Assembly: GCF_019968905.1 (NCBI RefSeq)
Contig: NZ_CP079946.1
Coordinates: 9,025,356 to 9,089,355 of the forward strand
Reading direction: 5' to 3'
Origin: Corallococcus sp. EGB
GTDB lineage: Bacteria; Myxococcota; Myxococcia; Myxococcales; Myxococcaceae
Length of the DNA stretch: 64,000 nt
This document shows positions 38,021-39,523 of this stretch, piece by piece. Within the stretch, counting starts at the first letter, position 1; every line of letters begins with the position of its first letter. Both the position numbers and the translations under genes were made by a program. The notes beneath the pieces are model-generated. The model saw only the letters and a list, made by a program, of their open reading frames with translations. It had not been told where the DNA came from and ran no database searches.

Positions 38021-39523
38021 ATGCCGACCCGCGATCCCAAGGCGTCGCCTTCACGCAGGGCTCCCGCGCGCGGCCTGGTTCCTCGGGCGGTGAGCGACCT
38101 GCTGCGCCATGCCCGTGCGTCCAACACGCCTTTGCGGCCGGAAGTGGAGCCCATCGGGGTGGCGCTGCCTCGAGTCCTCCGGGAAGCGGAGACACGGGAT
38201 GAGGAAGGGCTCGCGGCGCGGCTGTTGTCCGCCTGGTCCGACACCGTGCGAGCGCATGTGGAGGCAGGCACGCATGAAGTGAGCCTGAGCGGCGGCGTGG
38301 ACAGCGCGGCCCTGTGCGCGATGGCCGCGCGGCACGCCCCCGGGAAGGTGCGCGCGTGGACCATGGACGTGCACTTCGCGGACGCGGTGGAGCGGAGCAA
38401 CGCACGGCGGATGGCGAAGGTGACGGGTGCGGAGCTGGTGGACGTGCTCATCCCGGACGCCGTGCTCCCGGACCTGTTCGAGCACGCGGTCCTCGCCAAC
38501 CAGACCGTCATCCTCAACGCCCGGGCCGTGGCCAGCTACGTGTTCTACCTGGAGGCCCGGCGGCAGGGCGCGGGGCCCGTCCTCCTGAGCGGCGCGGGGG
38601 CGGATGAAGTGCTGCGGGGCAACCCTGTCGCCATCGCATCCGCGAAGGCCCGCGTAGACGAGGACCGGGCCCTGGCCGCGCAGGTCCTGGCGGCTGTGGA
38701 TAACTCGCGGGCGACGTTCCGAGCGGACTCGCGCGATCATGAGGACCTCCCCCGAGCGGCCCAGGAGGCTGTGGACAAGTCAGACAGGCCTGGGGACGGA
38801 GCGCCGCATCGCGATCAGGAATCAAAGCCATCCACGCGGCCGGCCACGGGAGCACCGGCGCCGGAGAACCCGGGTGCCGATCAAGCCGGAGCCCGTCGCG
38901 GGACCTCCGCGCCTGTGGACAACTTGAGGGCTGTTTCCGAGGGCGAAGACAGCGATCACGCCCCAAGCGCCCCCCCTGTGGACAACCTGGGGACCGGGCT
39001 CGCCGCGCCGTGGGAGCTACCATCGGAGGATGCGCTCCTCTCCGAGGAGCTGCGCTACGCGAAGTGGGTGCTGACCGAGCTCATCCTCCCGCCCGAGCTG
39101 CGAGGCGCCCGGGCCCATGGGCTCACGGTCCGCACGCCCTATCTGGATGAAGGCTTCGCGCGAATGGCGCTGGCCCTGCCGGAGTCCGTGCTGCTGCGGG
39201 AAGGGTTCGGCAAGTGGCTGTTCCGGCACGCGGTGCGGTCGCTGGTGCCGGAGGAGGTCCGCCTCGCGCGCAAGACGCCCCGGTATGGGCACACCGCGCT
39301 CTCCAGTCCGGTGCGCTCTCGCTGGCTGGAGCTGTATCGCGCGTGGCTGTCCCCCGAGAGGCTGGAGCCCCTCCAGGTCATCGACTCGCGAGCGGTGAGG
39401 GGCTTGCTGGAGCGCTACACCCGCCTGCCTCCGGATGACTTGAGGGCAGGACCGATGGATCGCCTGTTGATGCGCCTCGTGTCCCTGGCCATGCTCCAGG
39501 TCCACCCCAAGGCGCCCTCCTGA
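38021..39523 (+). CDS. Asparagine synthase-like protein without glutaminase domain, with disordered insert
   Basis: 500-residue protein with an asparagine-synthetase C-terminal (PP-loop) domain. The ATP-binding loop is SGGVDS (90-95); further matches are LSGAGADEVLRGNP and the C-terminal VRTPYLDEGFARMALALP with LARKTPRYGHTAL. The N-terminal glutaminase (Cys1) domain of AsnB is absent, so it must use ammonia or another amine, or be a lactam or amide-forming relative. Residues about 222-330 are a low-complexity, probably unstructured insert rich in Pro, Asp, Gly and Ala. It contains four (A/P)VD(N/K) blocks, encoded by four DnaA-box-like 9-mers. It is first in an operon with a glycosyltransferase and a ROK-like protein. 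Confidence 0.85.
   Translation: MPTRDPKASPSRRAPARGLVPRAVSDLLRHARASNTPLRPEVEPIGVALPRVLREAETRDEEGLAARLLSAWSDTVRAHVEAGTHEVSLSGGVDSAALCAMAARHAPGKVRAWTMDVHFADAVERSNARRMAKVTGAELVDVLIPDAVLPDLFEHAVLANQTVILNARAVASYVFYLEARRQGAGPVLLSGAGADEVLRGNPVAIASAKARVDEDRALAAQVLAAVDNSRATFRADSRDHEDLPRAAQEAVDKSDRPGDGAPHRDQESKPSTRPATGAPAPENPGADQAGARRGTSAPVDNLRAVSEGEDSDHAPSAPPVDNLGTGLAAPWELPSEDALLSEELRYAKWVLTELILPPELRGARAHGLTVRTPYLDEGFARMALALPESVLLREGFGKWLFRHAVRSLVPEEVRLARKTPRYGHTALSSPVRSRWLELYRAWLSPERLEPLQVIDSRAVRGLLERYTRLPPDDLRAGPMDRLLMRLVSLAMLQVHPKAPS
38695..38985 (+). repeat. Four same-strand DnaA-box-like 9-mers inside the coding insert
   Basis: TGTGGATAA at 38695-38703, and TGTGGACAA at 38770-38778, 38914-38922 and 38977-38985. 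Their complements, TTATCCACA and TTGTCCACA, equal the E. coli and GC-rich actinobacterial DnaA-box consensus. All four are in the same orientation and the same reading frame, encoding VDN/VDK at residues 226, 251, 299 and 320. Spacings are 75, 144 and 63 bp. Confidence 0.7.

Follow-up and report, generated by a model that had tools for sequence, protein, structure and literature searches.

The non-coding datA locus of Escherichia coli combines four DnaA boxes with IHF, whose single site it needs, and its boxes include low-affinity sites with two to three mismatches (PMC10950094). At the E. coli origin, high-affinity boxes alternate with weak sites, and some of the low-affinity ATP-DnaA sites have a common core, TGATCC, that spans positions 2-7 of their 9-mer (PMC8235120). 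Clusters of DnaA boxes near oriC repress untimely initiation in Bacillus subtilis and Streptomyces coelicolor (PMC4585315, PMC5010248). The accessible portions of these sources give titration as the mode of action of the B. subtilis clusters, and a coding array with an interleaved, invariant second motif is not among the features described there.

We analyzed a stretch of 64,000 nucleotides, positions 9,025,356-9,089,355 of the single-contig chromosome of Corallococcus sp. EGB (the window), in which an asparagine-synthase-like gene contains an array of four DnaA boxes (B1 to B4) and four copies of a second motif (s1 to s4). The features are listed by position in the window; counts out of 16 refer to Corallococcus genomes.

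38021..39523, plus strand: host gene, an ORF of 500 amino acids (ORF list and Pfam PF00733)
38699..39055, plus strand: in-frame insert with the array, residues 227-345, predicted to be disordered (AlphaFold2 pLDDT)
38695..38703, minus strand: DnaA box B1, TTATCCACA (TGTGGATAA on the plus strand); TTGTCCACA in the 15 other genomes
38734..38739, minus strand: s1, TGATCG (CGATCA on the plus strand), a putative low-affinity ATP-DnaA site; invariant in 16/16
38770..38778, minus strand: DnaA box B2, TTGTCCACA (TGTGGACAA on the plus strand); invariant in 16/16
38812..38817, minus strand: s2, TGATCG (CGATCA on the plus strand); invariant in 16/16
38878..38883, minus strand: s3, TGATCG (CGATCA on the plus strand); invariant in 16/16
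38912-38929: block CCTGTGGACAACTTGAGG around B3; invariant in 16/16
38914..38922, minus strand: DnaA box B3, TTGTCCACA (TGTGGACAA on the plus strand); invariant in 16/16
38932..38939, plus strand: extra invariant block TGTTTCCG between B3 and s4, 16/16, which includes the rare Val codon GTT (1-2% of Val codons)
38953..38958, minus strand: s4, TGATCG (CGATCA on the plus strand); invariant in 16/16
38977..38985, minus strand: DnaA box B4, TTGTCCACA (TGTGGACAA on the plus strand), with the invariant block CCCTGTGGACAACCTGGGG at 38974-38992

The array resembles datA in grouping four DnaA boxes over a short distance at a site that is separate from oriC but on its side of the chromosome; datA is traversed by transcription and depends on oriC-proximal dosage, as would presumably be the case here. 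However, it is protein-coding, its boxes are all perfect and on the same strand, it has four additional TGATCG sites, and it has no conserved IHF site: the best matches to WATCARNNNNTTR in the 16 inserts carry two mismatches and are missing from 5 of the 16. Strict identity with datA (DDAH) was rejected because the locus is coding and the IHF site is not conserved; for the latter reason, the hydrolysis mechanism of E. coli datA is not specifically supported. Like the B. subtilis and S. coelicolor clusters, the array is off oriC yet near it, and it has the TTGTCCACA box in common with the cluster of the high-GC S. coelicolor. The alternation of high-affinity boxes with candidate weak sites recalls E. 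coli oriC, whereas the larger spacing and the lack of an AT-rich unwinding element set the array apart from that origin. Three traits of a titration locus are found here: boxes off oriC that are denser than chance allows, lineage-wide conservation, and a position in the origin-proximal half of the chromosome. We consider it probable (about 60%) that the locus is a datA-like chromosomal DnaA-binding array, dual-coding in the disordered loop of an asparagine-synthase-like protein, that would titrate or inactivate DnaA. Such an undescribed DNA element would probably hold back DnaA to time chromosome copying, and we found no published myxobacterial or Corallococcus DnaA-box cluster or titration locus in the open-access literature.

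The initial annotation had claimed four same-strand sites resembling DnaA boxes at 38695-38985 and had considered them unexpected by chance; both claims were confirmed, and the case proved stronger than the annotation had supposed. TTRTCCACA occurred four times in the window, always within the array, against 0.28 expected from shuffled sequence, and none of 100 shuffles of the window reached four or more boxes. Pattern searches of the contig, which represents the whole genome (9.43 Mb; 9,431,171 bp), returned 12 perfect TTRTCCACA sites versus 20 for the reversed control pattern. One-third of the perfect boxes (4/12) lay in a 291-bp stretch inside the host gene and two at oriC, and the box with its preceding C, CTGTGGAYAA, was found seven times genome-wide, four of them in the host gene. 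The 9-mer is rare throughout the genome and belongs to no dispersed repeat; the first of the two results named in the initial annotation as refuting therefore did not arise.

Alignment of the 16 Corallococcus inserts revealed, between the boxes, four invariant CGATCA hexamers (complement TGATCG) that had been missed previously. Read on the box strand, TGATCG has the same orientation as the boxes, and exactly six bases are conserved at all four sites. The boxes had been defined before the alignment and CGATCA was picked out from it; nevertheless, picking conserved blocks alone could not yield four separate copies of one hexamer. The order B1-s1-B2-s2-s3-B3-s4-B4 was identical in 16/16 genomes, with start-to-start distances of 39 bp (B1-s1), 36 or 24 bp (s1-B2), 42 bp (B2-s2), 45, 54, 66, or 75 bp (s2-s3), 36 bp (s3-B3), 39 bp (B3-s4), and 24 bp (s4-B4). 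The four s2-s3 distances correspond to 4.29, 5.14, 6.29, and 7.14 turns at 10.5 bp per turn, which is only suggestive of a maintained helical phase, with approximately four events. Two Corallococcus genomes had one additional CGATCA upstream. The window contained 10 CGATCA copies, four of which were in the array, compared to 25.7 expected from shuffles. GATC itself was strongly depleted across the whole window (186 observed vs. 413 expected, both strands).

The gene was present in 16/16 Corallococcus genomes, and the insert contained exactly four perfect boxes in every homologue. The box-CGATCA-box pattern occurred twice per genome in all 16 and in 0/179 other genomes of the phylum. In a scan of 92 family genomes for box pairs 50-80 bp apart, each Corallococcus genome had two pairs in the host gene and one at oriC, and no further pairs were found in these genomes; in one genome (G030), two overlapping pairs were seen at oriC. 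Several of the relatives compared are draft genomes.

In homologues from the sister genus group, which includes Myxococcus and Pyxidicoccus, the equivalent linker is usually short and often has one box (TGTGGACAACTTGGGG), in some species none, and in a single genome three; unlike the Corallococcus insert, it has no array with CGATCA, and the hexamer was not seen in the linker of any of these homologues. The homologue with three boxes (L047, genome G058) likewise has them without CGATCA. B4 is probably the ancestral box, because a single equivalent box is present in Myxococcus. Elsewhere in the Myxococcus group, the only close pair of boxes (within about 1 kb) was that of oriC in five complete genomes and among the matches listed for a sixth. 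The array is missing from Myxococcus and all other relatives, and its function would therefore be lineage-specific or fulfilled otherwise there.

The alternative raised in the initial annotation, in-frame spread of a short repeat, applies only insofar as the box-plus-CGATCA units may be locally duplicated; they are not dispersed. We give almost no credence to chance or a selfish dispersed repeat as the source of the array; the apparent local duplication of its units would suit such an origin, but a single locus is conserved in 16/16 genomes. The dispersed repeat was rejected, as no copies exist elsewhere in the genome or in the other genomes scanned.

The host protein has a single Pfam domain, Asn_synthase (PF00733, E 5e-43), and corresponds to a stand-alone ATP-pyrophosphatase domain of the asparagine-synthase type with an intact SGGVDS motif. 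Its fold matches were an amidotransferase, asparagine synthetase, and beta-lactam synthetase, and no NCBIfam model scored above its cut-off against it. In an AlphaFold2 model built with 21 homologues, residues 227-345, where the array sits, had pLDDT values below 50, and the rest of the core was predicted with mostly fair to high confidence, in agreement with the initial annotation, which had described a domain of ordinary type interrupted by a disordered insert. Insert length differed among the 16 species by in-frame indels in the DNA alignment, and the array is in frame with the intact 500-residue ORF and therefore protein-coding.

Changes were mapped on a tree built from the gene body (1053 nt of a single gene, with low support at several nodes). 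The array motifs showed one change over 60 bases; the 300 other ungapped bases of the insert showed a mean of 1.79 changes, and 35% of them had none. The sole motif change, C to T in B1 of the source genome, converted TTGTCCACA to TTATCCACA, which is still a consensus box. Because the only tolerated change remains inside the DnaA consensus, DnaA is very likely the ligand; in keeping with this, Corallococcus DnaA retains the usual domain IV.

The codon preceding B1 is GCT, CTT, CCT, GTT, or ACT (A, L, P, V, T), with at least six changes on the tree; its third base is always T, against a background of approximately 5% third-base T in these genes. Ahead of CGATCA, the codon may specify R, H, G, S, A, C, or D, yet its third position is always C. 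The Asp codon within CGATCA is GAT in 64/64 cells of the alignment, although GAT accounts for 19-23% of Asp codons in the background, and the Asp codon within the boxes is GAC, with the B1 change of the source genome as the sole exception. Since the residues before the motifs vary while the third bases stay fixed, the constraint on the array is at the DNA level, and protein selection cannot account for the codon pattern. The second refuting result named in the initial annotation, homologues that spell VDN with other codons, did not arise either: codon choice for VDN and the T ahead of it are unchanged among homologues, even where the upstream amino acid differs. The single box of the Myxococcus group is also preceded by T regardless of the amino acid (GCT, ATT, CCT, TCT).

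We found it highly implausible that a repeated V-D-N and D-H/Q peptide was selected, with the DnaA boxes arising as a side effect of codon choice. The motifs do share one reading frame and encode recurrent VDN and DH or DQ, but the residue before B1 varies freely under its constant T, B2 of the source genome changes N to K without altering the 9-mer, s2 encodes either DQ or DH, and Asp is written GAC in the boxes versus GAT at CGATCA, all in a region predicted to be disordered. This cause was rejected on the third-base and codon patterns. An effect at the RNA level, with the same-strand UGUGGACAA and CGAUCA bound by a factor or folded within the mRNA, is very improbable: every motif lies in transcript orientation, but the 9-mer matches the DnaA consensus at every base and is paired at only one other place, oriC. 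No signal of conserved RNA structure was detected in the array (alifold z -0.8, single-sequence z near 0).

The contig starts at dnaA, and the oriC boxes lie approximately 21 kb away in the gidA-gidB intergenic region, as named from reading the flanking sequence. In three complete genomes, the array was located 346, 383, and 401 kb from oriC, corresponding to 0.037, 0.038, and 0.041 of the chromosome, within the early-replicated oriC half. Myxococcus homologues without the array lie at similar distances, and the oriC-proximal position therefore belongs to the gene. The possibility that the array is itself an origin was rejected, since oriC of the genus is at gidA-gidB and the array lies in coding sequence rich in GC.

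The origin, too, combines DnaA boxes with GATC-core sites. Of 50 oriC-like loci of the family (L050-L059, L113-L152), 47 had one GATC 14-15 bp ahead of the first oriC box and another 22 bp past the point where the last box begins; the latter is an Asp codon of gidB, always GAT. We found no published description of GATC at fixed distances around oriC boxes. The locus suggests that GATC-core sites belong to the DnaA recognition grammar at oriC throughout the family. TGATCG matches the E. coli core TGATCC in 5/6 positions, differing in the last base, and the distances between boxes and s sites in the array (24-42 bp) are unlike those at oriC, where spacing is tight. Most economically, the array can be read as a DnaA-binding platform that combines strong anchors with weak ATP-DnaA sites in the manner of E. 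coli oriC, without an unwinding element.

A second protein may be involved. DnaA would occupy the 9-mers and a factor recognizing the GATC core, a nucleoid protein or oriC regulator, would occupy CGATCA, forming a nucleoprotein complex for chromosome organization or replication control. This arrangement, which overlaps with the titration reading in everything except the identity of the second ligand, is conceivable, and we regard it with some doubt. CGATCA and the boxes are equally invariant, GATC stands at fixed distances beside the oriC boxes family-wide, and the depletion of GATC in the window (186 vs. 413) is also in its favor; however, TGATC is already a low-affinity core for DnaA, which makes a second protein unnecessary, and Dam-type methylases (PF02086) were found in only 5/16 Corallococcus genomes, which means that methylation at GATC does not characterize the genus. 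Given this sporadic occurrence, Dam-type methylation of GATC was rejected as an explanation, and SeqA-like sequestration was considered unlikely.

On the titration reading, the four TTRTCCACA boxes would anchor DnaA, and the four interleaved TGATCG motifs would most likely act as weak sites preferring ATP-DnaA, which would allow DnaA to fill the array cooperatively. Located 346-401 kb from oriC (approximately 4% of the chromosome), the array would be duplicated early, and the doubled array would then bind DnaA after initiation and restrain re-initiation. By analogy with datA and with the B. subtilis and S. coelicolor clusters, DnaA would probably be removed or inactivated once the early-replicated array has doubled. 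The datA-like role suggested in the initial annotation fits the DNA-level selection, the GATC motif shared with oriC, and the oriC-proximal location. The array itself, its invariance across the genus, the selection on its DNA, its uniqueness in the genome, and the GATC motifs at oriC are directly observed, whereas DnaA binding, the identity of the factor that recognizes TGATCG, and titration or inactivation as the output are what we infer. We would tentatively go further, at somewhat less than even odds, and suggest a genus-specific replication-control locus within an enzyme gene, with an oriC-like grammar of four strong boxes alternating with four TGATCG sites for ATP-DnaA placed in a disordered loop, and DNA that is both coding sequence and a DnaA-sensing switch.

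Binding of DnaA could instead have a transcriptional output: acting on the host gene, or on the glycosyltransferase gene downstream, DnaA would serve as a roadblock or regulator and couple expression to replication. The array lies inside a presumably transcribed gene, DnaA is already known as a transcription factor, and DnaA bound to box 2 of E. coli datA reduces read-through transcription (PMC10950094). We nevertheless judged this output unlikely: the array lies approximately 670 bp into the gene, distant from a promoter; eight interleaved sites seem more than a roadblock requires; and the Myxococcus counterpart of the host gene has one box or none.

To our knowledge, how DnaA is limited in bacteria beyond E. 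coli and B. subtilis is largely an open question, and the array is a concrete candidate for a DnaA-limiting locus with exactly defined sites. It is coding, and synonymous or near-synonymous recoding could therefore eliminate the boxes while altering the protein little or not at all, making titration cleanly testable. The locus also suggests that protein loops may harbor DNA for replication control.

Several minor observations were made at and near the origin. In Corallococcus, the gidA frame crosses the oriC GATCA and appears to stop at the TAA in the first oriC box, TGTGGATAA (G000:C1:9410293-9410385, L113); in those sister genera that were inspected, gidA seems to stop earlier, at the TGA of TGATC. 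Four Corallococcus genomes (L117, L118, L119, L128) had a third oriC box, TGTGGACAA, 11 bp past the start of the first. A lone DnaA box was found approximately 23 kb downstream of dnaA in three complete genomes (G000:C1:23466, L008; G018:C1:27744; G028:C1:2056678), where the flanking alignment breaks; it reads TGTGGATAA in one of them, a change within the consensus. The three complete Corallococcus genomes also had a second lone perfect box in common (G000:C1:800425, L010; G018:C1:818798; G028:C1:2864644).
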